This document shows positions 7,767 through 36,326 of a DNA stretch of 64,000 bases, piece after piece. A program made the position numbers and the translations under genes. The notes under the pieces are model-generated. The model was given only the letters and a program-made list of their open reading frames with translations, had not been told where the DNA came from and made no database searches. Origin of the DNA: Streptomyces puniciscabiei (GTDB lineage Bacteria; Actinomycetota; Actinomycetes; Streptomycetales; Streptomycetaceae); NCBI RefSeq assembly GCF_006715785.1, contig NZ_VFNX01000001.1, forward strand, positions 6,118,001-6,182,000. Direction: 5' to 3'. Numbering within the stretch: the first letter of the stretch is position 1; each line of letters opens with the position of its first letter.

Positions 7767-7784
7767 GACAGCGGCTGCTGACCC

Positions 7785-7980
7785 CGTGCGGGAGAGTCCT
7801 CCGACCACCTCGGAGGCGCCGAAGGAGCAAATCCTCCCCGGAATCTCTCAGGCCCACGTACCGCACGGACGAGGTCACTCTGGAAAGCAGGGCGGGTGTC
7901 GACGGCTCCCGCTCTCACCGACGGTGAAAGCCGGGGCGTACCCGGTGAAGCTCTCAGGTTGAGATGACAGAGGGGGAGGC
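7785..7980 (+). promoter_or_regulatory. Tandem glycine riboswitch
   Basis: Two glycine aptamers stand in series. Aptamer 1 is closed by GTGCGG (7785-7790) and CCGCAC (7861-7866) and has the core pieces GGAGAGTCC, CGCCGAAGGAGCAA and ATCTCTCAGGC. Aptamer 2 (about 7870-7980) has CACTCTGGAAAGC, CACCGACGGTGAAAGCC, GAAGCTCTCAGG and GACAGAGGGGGAGG. These are the conserved glycine-binding cores. The element ends about 60 bases before gcvP, so it most likely turns on gcvP when glycine is high. I see no clear intrinsic terminator between aptamer 2 and the start codon, so control may be at translation or by Rho. Confidence 0.93.
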
Positions 7981-32081: not shown

Positions 32082-33074
32082 ATGTCAGAGAGCAGTCAGG
32101 GCAGCCGCGGCAAGGGCGTCGGGCTCGGTCTGGCGCTGGCCTCGGCGCTCGCCTTCGGCGGGTCCGGGGTGGCAGCGAAGCCGCTGATCGAGGCGGGACT
32201 CGACCCGCTCCACGTGGTCTGGCTGCGGGTGTCCGGCGCCGCCGTCGTCATGCTGCCCGTCGCCGTACGGCACCGCGCGCTGCTGCGCCGCCGTCCCGCG
32301 CTGCTCGCCGGGTTCGGACTCCTCGCCGTCGCCGGCGTCCAGGCCTGCTACTTCGCCGCGCTGTCCCGTATACCGGTGGGCGTGGCCCTGCTCATCGAGT
32401 ACCTGGCTCCCGCGCTGGTGCTCGGCTGGGTCCGGTTCGTGCAACGGCGGCCCGTGACGCGCGCCGCCGCGCTCGGCGTGGTCCTGGCCGCCGGTGGCCT
32501 CGCCTGTGTGGTGGAGGTCTGGTCGGGCCTGAGCTTCGACGCTCTCGGCCTGCTCTTCGCGCTCGGCGCCGCCTGCTGCCAGGTCGGCTACTTCGTCCTG
32601 GCCGACCACGGTGGCGACGCGGGCGACGAGGCACCGGACCCGCTCGGCGTCATCGCCTACGGCCTGCTCGTCGGCGCCGTCGTACTGACGCTCGTCGCCC
32701 GCCCCTGGGGCATGCGCTGGTCGGTGCTGACCGGTTCGGCGCACCTCGACGGCACCGCCGTACCGGCCCTCGCGCTGCTGGGCTGGATCGTGCTGATCGC
32801 CACCGTCGTCGCGTACGTCACCGGGGTGCTGTCCGTGCGCCGTCTCTCCCCGCAGGTCGCCGGTGTCGTCGCCTGCCTGGAGGCGGTCGTCGCGACCGTG
32901 CTGGCCTGGGTGCTGCTCGGTGAGCACCTGTCGGCGCCTCAGGTGGCCGGCGGCGCGATCGTCCTGGTCGGCGCGTTCATCGCCCAGTCCTCGACTCCCG
33001 CGAAGGGCTCGGCCGAGCCGGTCGCCGCGGGCGGCGTCGAAAGGGATTTGTCGCCCCGGGGCACGACTGCATAA
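32082..33074 (+). CDS. EamA/DMT-family transporter
   Basis: 330 residues, ten transmembrane segments in two EamA halves (first ALASALAFGGSGVAAKPLIEAGLDPLHVVWLRVSGAAVV, second near AYVTGVLSVRRLSPQVAGVVACLEAVVATVLAWVLLGEHL). Drug/metabolite transporters of this group usually export amino acids or small metabolites. Start ATG 32082; GTG 32076 is possible. Its TAA stop (33072-33074) is the first half of the -10 hexamer of the promoter that serves the next EamA gene. Confidence 0.85.
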   Translation: MSESSQGSRGKGVGLGLALASALAFGGSGVAAKPLIEAGLDPLHVVWLRVSGAAVVMLPVAVRHRALLRRRPALLAGFGLLAVAGVQACYFAALSRIPVGVALLIEYLAPALVLGWVRFVQRRPVTRAAALGVVLAAGGLACVVEVWSGLSFDALGLLFALGAACCQVGYFVLADHGGDAGDEAPDPLGVIAYGLLVGAVVLTLVARPWGMRWSVLTGSAHLDGTAVPALALLGWIVLIATVVAYVTGVLSVRRLSPQVAGVVACLEAVVATVLAWVLLGEHLSAPQVAGGAIVLVGAFIAQSSTPAKGSAEPVAAGGVERDLSPRGTTA

Positions 33075-33077
33075 GGT
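33048..33077 (+). promoter_or_regulatory. Promoter for the leader peptide and downstream EamA gene
   Basis: TTGTCG (33048-33053), 18-base spacer, TAAGGT (33072-33077). The predicted start is at about 33085, the A of an ATG. The -10 overlaps the stop codon of the upstream EamA gene. Confidence 0.6.
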
Positions 33078-33084
33078 GCCGCTC

Positions 33085-33126
33085 ATGCCGTCGAACGCAC
33101 TCGTCCTTCCGCCCCCGGCCGCCTGA
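33085..33126 (+). CDS. Leaderless 13-residue leader peptide ending in Leu-Pro-Pro-Pro-Ala-Ala
   Basis: ATG 33085 to TGA 33124-33126 encodes MPSNALVLPPPAA. The ATG lies 7 bases after a TAAGGT -10 box, so it should be the 5' end of a leaderless mRNA and be read efficiently. Three consecutive prolines near the end are a known slow point for ribosomes. The stop codon is in the loop of a hairpin (33117-33134). The coding region is followed by 141 untranslated bases able to form exclusive pairings before the EamA exporter. Function as an attenuator peptide is inference; position, promoter and structure agree. Confidence 0.55.
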   Translation: MPSNALVLPPPAA

Positions 33127-33262
33127 GGCGGGCCTCCGGGACATCAGCCCCGCGCATCCGCGCCGGGCGGGACGGTGCTGCCCGCAGACGAAGTCCGTGC
33201 GCCCCGCTGAAGCGGGCCGCCTTCGAACTTCCGCACCTCCGGGTGCGTTTCTGCGGAAGAGA
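33117..33262 (+). promoter_or_regulatory. Attenuator-like leader RNA with Shine-Dalgarno-sequestering hairpin
   Basis: GGCCGCC (33117-33123, last codons of the leader peptide) can pair with GGCGGGCC (33127-33134). The same heptamer GGCCGCC recurs at 33215-33221 and can compete for that partner, but 33215-33216 also belong to a CCCGC-TGAA-GCGGG hairpin (33203-33216). Further on, CTTCCGCA (33228-33235) pairs perfectly with TGCGGAAG (33252-33259), which contains the Shine-Dalgarno of the EamA gene; the alternative CGCACC/GGTGCG (33232-33237, 33242-33247) would free it. Mutually exclusive pairings like these are diagnostic of attenuators, though energies were not computed. Confidence 0.55.
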
Positions 33263-33267
33263 TTCCC

Positions 33268-34218
33268 TTGACGACGTCGAACGCTGCTTCCGGCCTGCCC
33301 GTCGGGCGTGGCCTGCTCTATCTGATCATCACCGGTGCCGCCTGGGGCACCGCGGGCGCCGCCGCCTCCCTGGTCTACCGGACCAGTGACATGGGCGCCT
33401 TCGGACTGTCCTTCTGGCGCTGCGCACTGGGCCTGGTCCTGCTGCTCGCCGGACGCGGACTGCGCCCCTGGACCCGCCCGGCCGGCACCGAACCCCTGCT
33501 GCGCAGGGCCGGGAAGGTCCTCGCCACCGGCCTGGGCCTGGCGGTGTTCCAGACCGCCTACTTCGCCGCCGTGCAGTCGACCGGCCTGGCCGTGGCCACC
33601 GTCGTGACCGTCGGCGCGGGCCCCGTCCTCATCGCGCTCGGCGCCCGGCTGCTGCTCGGCGAACGGCTCGGCGCCGGCGGGGTGCTGGCCGTCGCGGGGG
33701 CGCTCGCCGGGCTGGCCGTGCTGACCTTCGGCGGCTCGGCGGCGACCGTACGGCCGGCGGGCGTGCTCCTGGCGCTGGTCTCCGCCGCGGGCTACGGCGC
33801 CATGACCCTGCTGACCCGCTGGTGGGGGAGGGGCGGCGGCACCGACGCCTCCGACACCACCGTCGGGGCCTTCGCGGTGACCGGGCTGTGCCTGCTGCCG
33901 TTCGCACTGCACGAGGGCCTGCTCCCGCACACCGCCCACCCGGCGCGGCTGCTGTGGCTCGTGCTCTACATCGCCGCCGTGCCCACGGCCCTCGCGTACG
34001 CCCTGTACTTCGCCGGGGCGGCCGTCGTACGGTCCGCCACCGTCTCCGTGATCATGCTGCTGGAGCCGGTGACCGCGGCCGTGCTCGCCGTCGTGCTGCT
34101 CGGTGAGCGGCTCACGGCGACCACCGCGGCCGGCACGCTGCTCCTGCTCGGCGCGGTCGCGGGCCTGGCGGTGAGCGAGGCCCGCGGGGGCGGTGGCCGG
34201 GAGTCGGTCCCCGTGTGA
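33268..34218 (+). CDS. EamA/DMT-family transporter under leader-peptide control
   Basis: 316 residues, ten transmembrane segments ([21 protein letters not shown] at the N-terminus, [27 protein letters not shown] in the second EamA half). Start TTG 33268 with GGAAGAGA at 33255-33262; a TTG start plus a hidden ribosome-binding site points to low basal translation. Likely exporter of an amino acid or toxic small molecule. The leader (33085-33262) suggests induction when translation of the leader peptide slows. It is the second of two adjacent EamA genes but has its own promoter. Confidence 0.85.
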
Positions 34219-34237
34219 CTCCCGCCGAATCCGGGCC

Positions 34238-34918
34238 CTACAGGGCCTTCAGGTAGTCCGGCAGCTCGATGCCCGGCGCCAGATCGGCGTTGGGCAGCGG
34301 CGCGTCGTAGCCCTTCCGGAGCGGGACGACGCCGGCCCAGTGCGGCAGGGCGAGGTCCTCCGGGTCGTCGTTCGCGCCGCCCGTGCGGACCTTGGCCGAG
34401 ACCTCGTCCAGGTCCAGCCGGATCACCGCGGTGGCGGCCAGCTCCTTCTTGTCGGCGGGCCGGGAGTCCGCGGACCGGCCCGGCACGACGTGGTCCACCA
34501 GCGCGTCCAGGGCCAGCCGCCGCTCCTCGGGGTCGGTGACCTGGCGCGCGATGCCGTGCACCACCACGGAGCGGTAGTTGATGGAGTGGTGGAAGGCGGA
34601 GCGGGCCAGCACCAGCCCGTCGACGTGGGTCACCGTCAGGCACACCGGCAGGCCCGGGTCGGTCCCGCCGGTCATCCGCAGTGGGCGGGAACCGGTGGAT
34701 CCGTGCACGTACAGGCGCTCGCCGACCCGGCCGTACAGGGTCGGCAGCACCACCGGGGCGCCGTCGCGGACGAAGCCGAGGTGGCAGACGTACCCCTCGT
34801 CGAGTATCGCGTGCACCAGTTCCCTGTCGTACGACGCCCGGTCCGCGGAGCGCGTGGGTACGGTGCGGTCGGTCGGGGTGTAGGCGGCGGCCCGGTTCTC
34901 CTCGGTCGTCCCCTGCAT
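34238..34918 (-). CDS. Pyridoxamine 5'-phosphate oxidase-related FMN-binding protein
   Basis: 226 residues with a split-barrel flavin-binding fold: ELVHAILDEGYVCHLGFVRDGAPVVLPTLYGRVGERLYVHGSTGSRPLR, then VDGLVLARSAFHHSINYRSVVVHGIARQVTDPEERRLALDAL. This is the Nim-like branch of the family (NimA nitroreductase relatives) rather than true PdxH. Start ATG 34918 with GGAGGGAC six bases upstream. Divergent from a MocR regulator, a common pairing in which the regulator, itself a PLP protein, controls the oxidase-like gene. Confidence 0.82.
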   Translation of the reverse strand: MQGTTEENRAAAYTPTDRTVPTRSADRASYDRELVHAILDEGYVCHLGFVRDGAPVVLPTLYGRVGERLYVHGSTGSRPLRMTGGTDPGLPVCLTVTHVDGLVLARSAFHHSINYRSVVVHGIARQVTDPEERRLALDALVDHVVPGRSADSRPADKKELAATAVIRLDLDEVSAKVRTGGANDDPEDLALPHWAGVVPLRKGYDAPLPNADLAPGIELPDYLKAL

Positions 34919-34945
34919 GTCGGTCCCTCCATCGGCGAACAACAA

Positions 34946-34987
34946 CGATCTGGCGATCTGGCGATGTCTATTGCACTAGTGCATAAT
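34946..34987. promoter_or_regulatory. Divergent control region: MocR operators and leaderless promoter
   Basis: CGATCTGG is repeated at 34946-34953 and 34954-34961 and begun a third time at 34962 (CGAT); MocR proteins often bind direct repeats. TGCACTAGTGCA (34972-34983) is a perfect 12-base palindrome. TGGCGA (34959-34964), 17 bases, then CATAAT (34982-34987) form a promoter whose start falls at GTG 34995. Confidence 0.55.
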
Positions 34988-34994
34988 GTCTTTT

Positions 34995-36326
34995 GTGCTA
35001 GGAGAGTATCCCATCGAAGGGCGTGGCGCAGCCGAGATCGCGGCCAGCGTCGAGCGCGCGGTCGGCGCCGGTACGCTGCAGCCGGGTCAAGCCCTGCCTC
35101 CCATGCGGGAGTTGGCGACCCGGCTGGGCGTGAATCCGAACACCGTGGCGGCCGCCTACCGCACCCTGCGCGAGCGCGGGGTCATCGAGACGGCCGGCCG
35201 GCGGGGCAGCCGGGTCCGGCCCAAGCCGGCCACCACCGGCCGCGAGGAACTGCGCGTGGAGGTCCCCGCCGGGGGCCGCGACCTGTCGGCGGGCAACCCG
35301 GACCCGGCCCTGCTCCCCCGCCTCGCCCCGGCGCTCGCCGCGGCGGCGCAGGAGGGCGACAGGCGGCCCGTCCTCTACGGCGACGACCCGGTCGAGCCCG
35401 AACTCGTCCGCACGGCCCGCGCCGAACTCGACGCCGACGGCGTCCCGGAGGGCCCGCTGACCGTGACGTCCGGCTCCCTCGACGCCATCGAGCGCGTCCT
35501 CGCCGCGCACCTCAGGCCGGGCGACGCGGTCGCCGTCGAGGATCCCGGCTGGGGCAGCGTCCTCGACCTGGTCCCGGCGCTGGGCCTGTGCACGCTCCCG
35601 GTCGGTATGGACGACGACGGACCGCGCCCGGAGGACCTGCGCCGGGCCCTGGAGTCCGGGGCCCGCGCGCTCATCGTCACCGACCGTGCGCAGAACCCCA
35701 CCGGGGCCTCGGTGACCGCCACGCGCGCGCGTGCCCTGCGTGCGATCCTGCGCGACCACCCGCGCACCCTGCTGATCGAGGACGACCACGGACACGGCAT
35801 CGTCGACCTCCCGTTGCACCCCCTCGCGGGCGTCACCCACCACTGGGCCGTCGTCCGCTCCGCCTCCAAGGCCTACGGTCCCGACCTGCGTGTGGCCGTC
35901 GTCGCCGGCGACCCGGTCACCGTCGACCGGGTACGCGGCCGCCAGCGCCTCGGCCCGGGCTGGGTGAGCCTGCTGCTGCAGCGAGCCGTGGTCCGGCTGT
36001 GGGCCGAGGGCGCGGTGGACCGGGCGGCGGTGGCGAAGGCGTACGGCGCCCGGCGGGACGCGCTGGTCGACGCGCTCGCGGAACGCGGGGTCGTCGCCCA
36101 CGGCCGCAGCGGCATGAACGTGTGGGTACCGGTCCCCGACGAGACCGGTGCGGTGGCCCGTCTGCTGCAGGCGGGCTGGGCGGTGGCCCCGGGGGCCCGC
36201 TTCCGCGTCTCCTCCCCACCCGGCATCCGCATCACGATCTCGACCCTCGCGGAGCAGGACATCAGCCTGCTGGCAGACGCGGTGGCGGCAGCGGTACGAC
36301 CGTCACCGGCGCGTGTCTACGGCTGA
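34995..36326 (+). CDS. MocR/PdxR-type regulator: GntR HTH fused to an aminotransferase-like domain
   Basis: 443 residues. GntR winged helix at residues 1-70 (GAAEIAASVERAVGAGTLQPGQALPPMRELATRLGVNPNTVAAAYRTLRERGVIET), linker, then a fold-type I aminotransferase domain (GSLDAIERVLAAHLRPGDAVAVEDPGWGSVLDLV, AQNPTGASVT, PLP lysine Lys292 in SASKAYGPD). Such proteins sense PLP or an amino-acid/PLP adduct. GTG 34995 is preferred over ATG 34986 because CATAAT lies 7 bases before it and no Shine-Dalgarno is present, so the mRNA is leaderless. The 3' end overlaps the convergent EamA gene by 24 bases. Confidence 0.88.
   Translation: MLGEYPIEGRGAAEIAASVERAVGAGTLQPGQALPPMRELATRLGVNPNTVAAAYRTLRERGVIETAGRRGSRVRPKPATTGREELRVEVPAGGRDLSAGNPDPALLPRLAPALAAAAQEGDRRPVLYGDDPVEPELVRTARAELDADGVPEGPLTVTSGSLDAIERVLAAHLRPGDAVAVEDPGWGSVLDLVPALGLCTLPVGMDDDGPRPEDLRRALESGARALIVTDRAQNPTGASVTATRARALRAILRDHPRTLLIEDDHGHGIVDLPLHPLAGVTHHWAVVRSASKAYGPDLRVAVVAGDPVTVDRVRGRQRLGPGWVSLLLQRAVVRLWAEGAVDRAAVAKAYGARRDALVDALAERGVVAHGRSGMNVWVPVPDETGAVARLLQAGWAVAPGARFRVSSPPGIRITISTLAEQDISLLADAVAAAVRPSPARVYG

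Follow-up and report, generated by a model that had tools for sequence, protein, structure and literature searches.

A conserved proline-rich leader peptide upstream of an EamA-family transporter gene in Streptomyces, and its possible role as a ribosome-operated translational attenuator

Introduction

What is the role of a very short open reading frame (ORF), ending in consecutive proline codons, that directly precedes a transporter gene of the EamA family? The question is raised by a locus in Streptomyces puniciscabiei, located in a window of 64,000 nucleotides (nt) of contig NZ_VFNX01000001.1 (positions 6,118,001–6,182,000, forward strand); all coordinates given here are positions in that window. 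We refer to the upstream EamA gene as E1, and to the downstream EamA gene, with the leader in front, as E2. An earlier sequence-only reading of the window had proposed a leaderless, proline-rich leader peptide followed by mutually exclusive RNA pairings in front of the masked ribosome-binding site of E2.

As judged by comparison with orthologous loci, the leader peptide is real and deeply conserved. The best reading of the locus is a ribosome-operated translational attenuator of E2, to which we assign a probability of roughly 0.58. The elements on which the argument depends are:

33048..33077, + strand: putative promoter TTGTCG-N18-TAAGGT, 7 nt before the ATG (from the sequence and the conservation of a TANNNT box)
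33085..33126, + strand: leader ORF MPSNALVLPPPAA with its stop codon, probably leaderless (frame kept in 77/80, 29/30 and 5/5 orthologous loci)
33268..34218, + strand: E2, EamA-family transporter gene with a TTG start (PF00892; the TIGR00950 match is below cut-off)

Results

Conservation of the leader peptide

The promoter hexamers, their spacing and the ORF are where the sequence-only reading had placed them: TTGTCG (33048–33053) and TAAGGT (33072–33077) are separated by an 18-nt spacer, and the ATG at 33085 opens 13 codons, MPSNALVLPPPAA, closed by TGA (33124–33126). The –10 box TAAGGT overlaps the stop codon of E1 (33072–33074). The best 80 E2 orthologues from a genome-contig scan, carrying Streptomyces titles and one Kitasatospora title, were used for comparison, and the leader motif is present in 77 of these loci, a count that takes in L056 (no start codon) and L075 (third pairing segment lost; see below). 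Three loci, L045, L051 and L074, have lost the leader by deletion, leaving E2 directly after E1, with an E2 match that is still nearly full length. L075 and L167 keep the peptide and have lost segment 3. At three loci (L056, L157 and L169) the frame is kept and the usual ATG start is lost, by mutation or sequencing error.

Two covariance models were used to follow the element further. The first, R1, matched 126/297 genomes of the family in 7/17 genera at E ≤ 0.01. The broader model, R2, matched 140/197 genomes of the order and, phylum-wide, 6/198 genomes, in both cases only in the genus of the window; since the phylum-wide search sampled few genomes from the second and third families described below, and R2 was built without them, these counts are lower bounds. 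Sixty weaker R1 places, hand-picked by eye and leaving out L082–L111, have E2 identities down to about 50%, and 56 of them carry VL[PSA]PP before the stop codon (exceptions: L129, L139, L162 and L169). Seven genomes of the same genus that are listed without E2 (G052, G086, G098, G110, G116, G125 and G128) are also without a match to the leader model, and a further genome, G044, has E2, no model match, and a divergent leader, MNAALVTVSPPPA followed by a stop codon.

A class-level search with E2 (60 genomes) returned orthologues in two genomes of a second family (f17), and a search of the order around one of these matched 31/121 genomes. Thirty loci were obtained from the 31 matches, and 29 of them carry a leader (L231 does not), e.g. 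MTPFTVSPPPAR, VTTLIISPPTAR and VPRRLICSPPPAR, each closed by a stop codon, with a TANNNT box 6–7 nt before the ATG or GTG chosen by our script. A wider class search matched 43/345 genomes and reached a third family (f18), where five genomes of one genus have the leader in 5/5 cases (MSSTVLSPPAA and similar peptides before the stop; that of L256, missed by the script pattern, was read by eye). SPP and SPPP versions of the peptide occur in the second and third families.

An extra copy of the leader precedes an apparent EamA paralogue in two genomes of the same genus: MQTFLTPPPPAV at L139 and MQLFLTPPPPAA at L258, both followed by a stop codon. In the L139 copy (from base 1001 after turning) the pairing segments are different and still complementary, GGGCAGC/GTTGCCC, with CCTCGA/TCGAGG over the Shine-Dalgarno (SD) sequence. 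In the window's own genome no second copy was found, the next match after the locus having an E value of 0.18.

Promoter and start codon

A TANNNT box stands 6–8 nt before an in-frame start in 126/131 leaders, and exactly 7 nt before it in 108; if a leader offered more than one in-frame start, the script chose the nearest start that such a box precedes. Because this spacing is kept, translation of the leader is likely leaderless, as the sequence-only reading had suggested. A consensus sigma-70 scan of the locus returned no site, and the promoter assignment therefore rests on conservation. No terminator-like site was found between 31900 and 33400, and hence no sign of the terminator and U run of a classical transcription attenuator.

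Coding constraint and candidate pause codons

Leaders were extracted from 141 sequences (the 80 loci, the window and the 60 weaker places), of which 133 were kept. The rows left out were L045, L051 and L074 (leader deleted), L162 (leader absent, a probable false positive of the model), and L121, L123, L134 and L145 (peptide retained, with a shift in the sequence that follows the stop). Across the last seven codons of 157 leaders (81, 47 and 29), heterozygosity at codon positions 1/2/3 is 0.16/0.11/0.41, and the same leaders comprise 88 distinct nucleotide sequences and 27 peptides. Third bases change synonymously and the amino acids are fixed, Val and Leu included, which supports a coding-type constraint on the leader and its Pro-rich end. 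Proline occupies codon –4 in 157/157 leaders, and adjacent prolines are found in 132/133 rows and in 29/29 second-family leaders; the one row without them, L160, was mis-anchored, its true leader being MSFPAVLSPPVR followed by a stop codon. Within a family the residues leading up to the prolines are conserved, and the N-terminal part is free; between families the residue immediately before the prolines varies (L or S).

Codons that are rare in the genes downstream at the 80 loci are frequent here: of 127 leaders, 79 have CCT at the second proline, 75 have CTT and 68 have GTT, vs 2.9% of Pro, 1.2% of Leu and 1.5% of Val codons, respectively, in those genes. According to excerpts of a study of Escherichia coli (PMC8129111), CCC and CCU slow diproline synthesis.

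Pairing segments downstream of the leader

Three segments around and after the stop codon are predicted to pair in alternative ways:

33117..33123, + strand: segment 1, GGCCGCC, in the last Pro/Ala codons; pairs with segment 2
33127..33134, + strand: segment 2, GGCGGGCC, directly after the stop codon, with the core GCGGGC at 33128–33133
33177..33185, + strand: segment 3, GCTGCCCGC, with the core GCCCGC at 33180–33185, complementary to segment 2 (RNAalifold helix in alignments A2 and A3)

The loci were divided into groups A (the window's own), B, and C (the second family), with 81, 44 and 29 loci, 154 in total. Segment 3 could be placed in 126 Streptomycetaceae leaders after the loss of L075, L126, L139, L141, L156, L167 and L169, and in 125 after removal of the mis-anchored L160; L126, L141 and L156 still carry GCCCGC. 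Because segment 3 was found by motif in groups A and B, its near-invariance is partly a product of selection. For alignments A1, A2 and A3, 56, 36 (divergent Streptomycetaceae) and 41 (mixed) sequences were selected by hand, and A4 is a second-family alignment.

The hairpin that the sequence-only reading had drawn over the stop codon, between segments 1 and 2, is supported by comparison: 98.9% of cells are paired in A1, and the CGGGC of segment 2 is found in 152/154 loci. CGGGC occurs together with GCCCGC in 146/154 loci, and the core CGGGC:GCCCG is pairable (G-U allowed) in 153/154. Helix 2:3 is also the only consensus helix that RNAalifold, run without hints, returned on A2 and A3. The conserved segments could compete in front of a masked ribosome-binding site, as the sequence-only reading had proposed in general terms, with a different competitor: the repeat GGCCGCC at 33215–33221, which had been assigned that role, is present in the window and, by eye, not conserved, and its place is taken by GCCCGC at 33180–33185.

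Groups B and C have a hairpin, P4, that places segment 3 in its loop and whose arms vary between loci (GTCG/CGAC, ATCG/CGAT, GTCA/TGAC, GTGGTCG/CGACCAC and GAGTGGTTG/CAACCACTC), and two-sided changes are present in these divergent groups. Cognate P4 arms pair better than permuted ones, with z values of –5.0 (B) and –4.7 (C) and 0/5000 permutations as good in each case; in this and the other cognate-versus-permuted tests, the permutations leave relatedness in place. Together, helices 2:3 and P4 would form a pseudoknot, which is outside what nested-fold calculations score. Rfam 15 has no match here at gathering threshold, the best hit being an unrelated family at E 2.2. A further candidate helix, leader CACUCGUY with RACGGUG, changed on both sides at one pair in 22/56 rows; we do not claim it.

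Predicted masking of the E2 Shine-Dalgarno site

Five further elements are predicted to be involved in covering the SD of E2:

33250..33261, + strand: TCTGCGGAAGAG, masked region with the E2 SD (from the sequence)
33106..33112, + strand: CUUCCGC, part of the Leu-Pro codons; can form 7 bp with GCGGAAG over the SD in the window
33182..33188, + strand: CCGCAGA, a potential partner of TCTGCGG over the SD (sequence comparison; test of the segment-3 core against the SD)
33190..33194, + strand: GAAGT, can pair with ACTTC inside the masking structure (minimum free energy fold; RNAalifold on 17 near relatives)
33227..33231, + strand: ACTTC, the partner of GAAGT (same sources)

Comparison of the loci suggests that the clades differ in what can mask the SD, the candidates being a pyrimidine run nearby, segment 3 and the Leu/Pro codons of the leader. 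In the window's group, the pairing CCGCAGA:TCTGCGG, with GAAGT:ACTTC inside, is predicted to cover the SD. Across the 125 Streptomycetaceae loci the segment-3 core pairs with its cognate SD better than with permuted ones (5/2000 as good; 99/2000 for the whole segment). The two pairings proposed by the sequence-only reading for this region fared less well. CTTCCGCA (33228–33235) and TGCGGAAG (33252–33259) are at those positions, but by eye the exact octamers are not kept, near relatives having mostly TCTGCGGAGA; the alternative CGCACC/GGTGCG, also judged by eye, exists in part of Streptomyces (sometimes as CGCGC/GCGCG) but is absent from, e.g., L015, L024 and L026.

Complementarity between leader codons and SD recurs with changed sequence, as in CUCCCGCC:GGUGGGAG at L118 and GUCUCUCC:GGAGAGAC at L222. 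Of 5000 permutations, 2 (A), 0 (B) and 22 (C) were as good as the cognate pairing, and the overall z over the 154 loci is –6.0, with relatedness still in the comparison; an earlier run on 14 second-family loci, with at least one wrong SD (L212), was not significant (1522/5000). In the second family (A4) RNAalifold includes both the helix of leader codons with SD and the 1:2 hairpin in the consensus, and in A2 the leader:SD stem is paired in 74.0% of cells.

Predicted effect of a paused ribosome

Folded as a single sequence, the region departs only mildly from its shuffled versions (z –1.93; 7/200 shuffles as good). In nested folds of the 125 loci, the predicted openness of the SD is 0.23 for free RNA, 0.35 with the ribosomal P site three codons before the stop, and 0.22–0.26 with the ribosome past the stop; the SD is more open at –3 than free in 98/125 loci, and more open than past the stop in 83/125. 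The expected number of 2:3 pairs rises under stalling from 0.9 to 2.4 in group A and from 0.2 to 1.1 in group B. These values point in the direction expected of a pause that opens the SD.

Discussion

A proposed ribosome-operated switch and its weak points

We infer a leaderless start, a pause, a sign (pause = on) and a signal, which would fit together as follows. The 5' end of the mRNA would be the A of the leader's ATG or a neighbouring base, and ribosomes would load on the leader without an SD. With no ribosome held, the last leader codons would pair with GCGGGC after the stop, and the E2 SD would be covered. A ribosome pausing on the consecutive Pro codons would have its 3' edge at the stop codon: with the second proline (33112–33114) in the P site and an assumed reach of 15 nt, simple arithmetic places the edge at 33126, the last base of the stop, so that segment 1 would be covered and segment 2 free. 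The paused ribosome would thereby enclose segment 1 and the anti-SD stretch of the leader, with segment 2 just outside; the freed segment 2 would pair with segment 3, and the exporter's SD would be released. The signal may be a shortage of prolyl-tRNA or of elongation factor P (EF-P), which would slow diproline synthesis; alternatively, a small molecule may act on the peptide as it is being made.

Possibly, though we offer this tentatively and would not bet on it, the pause codons themselves are the lock: CCN-CCU-CCN contains a CCUCC-like anti-SD, and low EF-P or prolyl-tRNA would lift this cover as segment 2 clamps segment 3. In that case the element would be a sensor of proline translation acting on an EamA transporter in no fewer than three families of Actinobacteria, and the principle of a codon run doubling as anti-SD would be suggested for the unsolved LEU element too.

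An alignment of orthologues, which the sequence-only reading had suggested as a check on conservation and covariation, shows the peptide frame kept and P4 covarying in groups B and C; the lack of conservation of frame and pairings that would have refuted that reading was not observed. Several results weigh against the attenuator. Helix 2:3 is invariant, with no two-sided change, and its cognate pairing is not clearly better than permuted (118/2000 as good). For P4, support is absent from the window's own group (z –0.3) and the share of paired cells is 83.9% in A2 and 75.0% in A4; on the second family RNAalifold chose neither P4 nor helix 2:3. Two-sided changes in the leader:SD stem number zero in A2 and one cell in A4, and for the leader:RACGGUG helix in the window's group a test with a tree gives 3 shared branches and is not significant (p 0.06). 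The gain in SD opening is 0.02/0.18/0.11 for real spacers and 0.12/0.17/0.16 for shuffled ones (groups A/B/C), the real gain being the larger in 23/81, 21/44 and 13/29 loci, and for the window itself no rise is predicted (0.36 free vs 0.25 stalled). Because shuffled spacers gain about equally or more and opening is not predicted for the window, the sign of the switch is only inferred.

Alternative explanations

The conserved hairpin and the pseudoknot-like helix would also suit an RNA that is itself the sensor, as a riboswitch or protein-binding element, in which the C-rich Pro codons only supply the anti-SD and translation of the leader is incidental. Many relatives have leader codons complementary to the SD, and a protein-bound element has been argued for the similar LEU element, according to excerpts of Seliverstov et al. 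(PMC1262725). We nevertheless consider such a sensor unlikely, given that the third base is free with the amino acids fixed (Val and Leu among them), that the start codon and its spacing from the –10 box are conserved, and that no Rfam family matches. If the peptide is what matters, it could act as an arrest peptide, the V-[LS]-(P)PP-A chain stalling only with a small molecule or translation inhibitor in an Erm-like manner; an exporter would be a sensible target, and the residues before the prolines are conserved within families. That the pre-proline residue varies between families, with a free N-terminal part, makes this a rather improbable explanation; evidence for a ligand was neither looked for nor found.

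Stalling may also play no part, the leader constitutively keeping the region open by being translated and handing ribosomes to E2. An occupied leader opens the SD with shuffled spacers too, and L045, L051 and L074 retain a nearly full-length E2 directly after E1 with the leader deleted. Constitutive coupling would, however, leave no role for the covarying hairpin or for the segments kept nearly invariant beyond the stop codon, and we hold it to be equally improbable. Far less credible is a conserved promoter or operator DNA with chance pairings in GC-rich sequence: the promoter hexamers are conserved and the fold z is only –1.93, but conservation continues past the start to the SD, with codon periodicity and a covarying hairpin.

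If the attenuator is correct, the locus would add a widely conserved leader-peptide switch, link polyproline pausing to exporter control, provide a second, testable case of the architecture behind the puzzling LEU element, and offer an entry point to the substrate of a conserved EamA transporter, which in Streptomyces lies near genes for a MocR regulator and a pyridoxamine 5'-phosphate oxidase-like (PNPOx) protein.

Comparison with known systems

No paper describing the peptide or a leader of an EamA gene was found among open-licence papers (preprints excluded). Among described architectures, that of the LEU element of actinobacterial leuA comes closest, and the EamA element appears to resemble it in its working. 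In the excerpts of Seliverstov et al. 2005 (PMC1262725), that element comprises a leader ORF with leucine codons, a base stem between codons and SD, a pseudoknot and an alternative hairpin, and its mechanism is left unsettled. The two share a short leader ORF and an actinobacterial host, and the EamA element may also have counterparts of the base stem between codon run and SD, the pseudoknot and the alternative hairpin; judged from the same excerpts, they differ in two defining features, in that the LEU element has leucine codons and precedes leuA, whereas the leader here has consecutive prolines and precedes an EamA gene. The leuA gene of the window's genome (G000:C1:4754156) has its own candidate leader, MRFGLLLLSCRGEGL followed by a stop codon (L233, bases 1316–1363), with a TAGGCT box 10 nt before the ATG, which is possibly a LEU element. 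By eye, the EamA and leuA leaders of this genome have no sequence kinship.

Erm-type translational attenuators consist of a leader peptide and competing segments that free the SD when an antibiotic stalls the ribosome. Leader peptide, competing segments and release of the SD on stalling are what the EamA element would have in common with them; Erm-type leaders stall with antibiotic, whereas consecutive prolines are conserved in the EamA leader, which seemingly lacks an SD of its own. Control of mgtCBR has been described as control of transcription. According to excerpts of PMC3641672 and PMC11552253, the Mg2+ transporter leaders of Salmonella and E. coli likewise have a short ORF containing Pro codons in front of a transporter gene, with leader folding thought to depend on leader translation. 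They belong to other bacteria, genes and signals, and the EamA locus is without a terminator-like site.

Gene neighbourhood

The leader and E2 are part of a larger block, window positions 32082–36326, that comprises two EamA genes, a PNPOx-like gene and a MocR regulator:

32082..33074, + strand: E1, EamA-type transporter gene, start uncertain (PF00892; in 76/76 Streptomyces/Kitasatospora loci with full flanks)
34238..34945, – strand: PNPOx-like protein, conserved neighbour (PF12900; 76/76 loci)
34986..36326, + strand: MocR-type regulator (GntR and aminotransferase domains), conserved neighbour (PF00392/PF00155; 76/76 loci)

Homologues of E1, E2, PNPOx and MocR are all present in each of these 76 loci. 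Among the 60 divergent places, which have shorter flanks, E1 is found in 40, PNPOx in 37 and MocR in 14. None of the three was found within the roughly 1.5-kb flanks of E2 at the 30 second-family loci, which argues that the leader goes with E2. The amino-acid exporter models of NCBIfam match E2 below their cut-offs only, and a PDB sequence search with the EamA protein gave no match at E 0.01. The best NCBIfam match of the MocR regulator is PtsJ-like, below its cut-off. Elsewhere in the window, at 7779–7873 on the + strand, lies a glycine riboswitch (RF00504, 69.3 bits).

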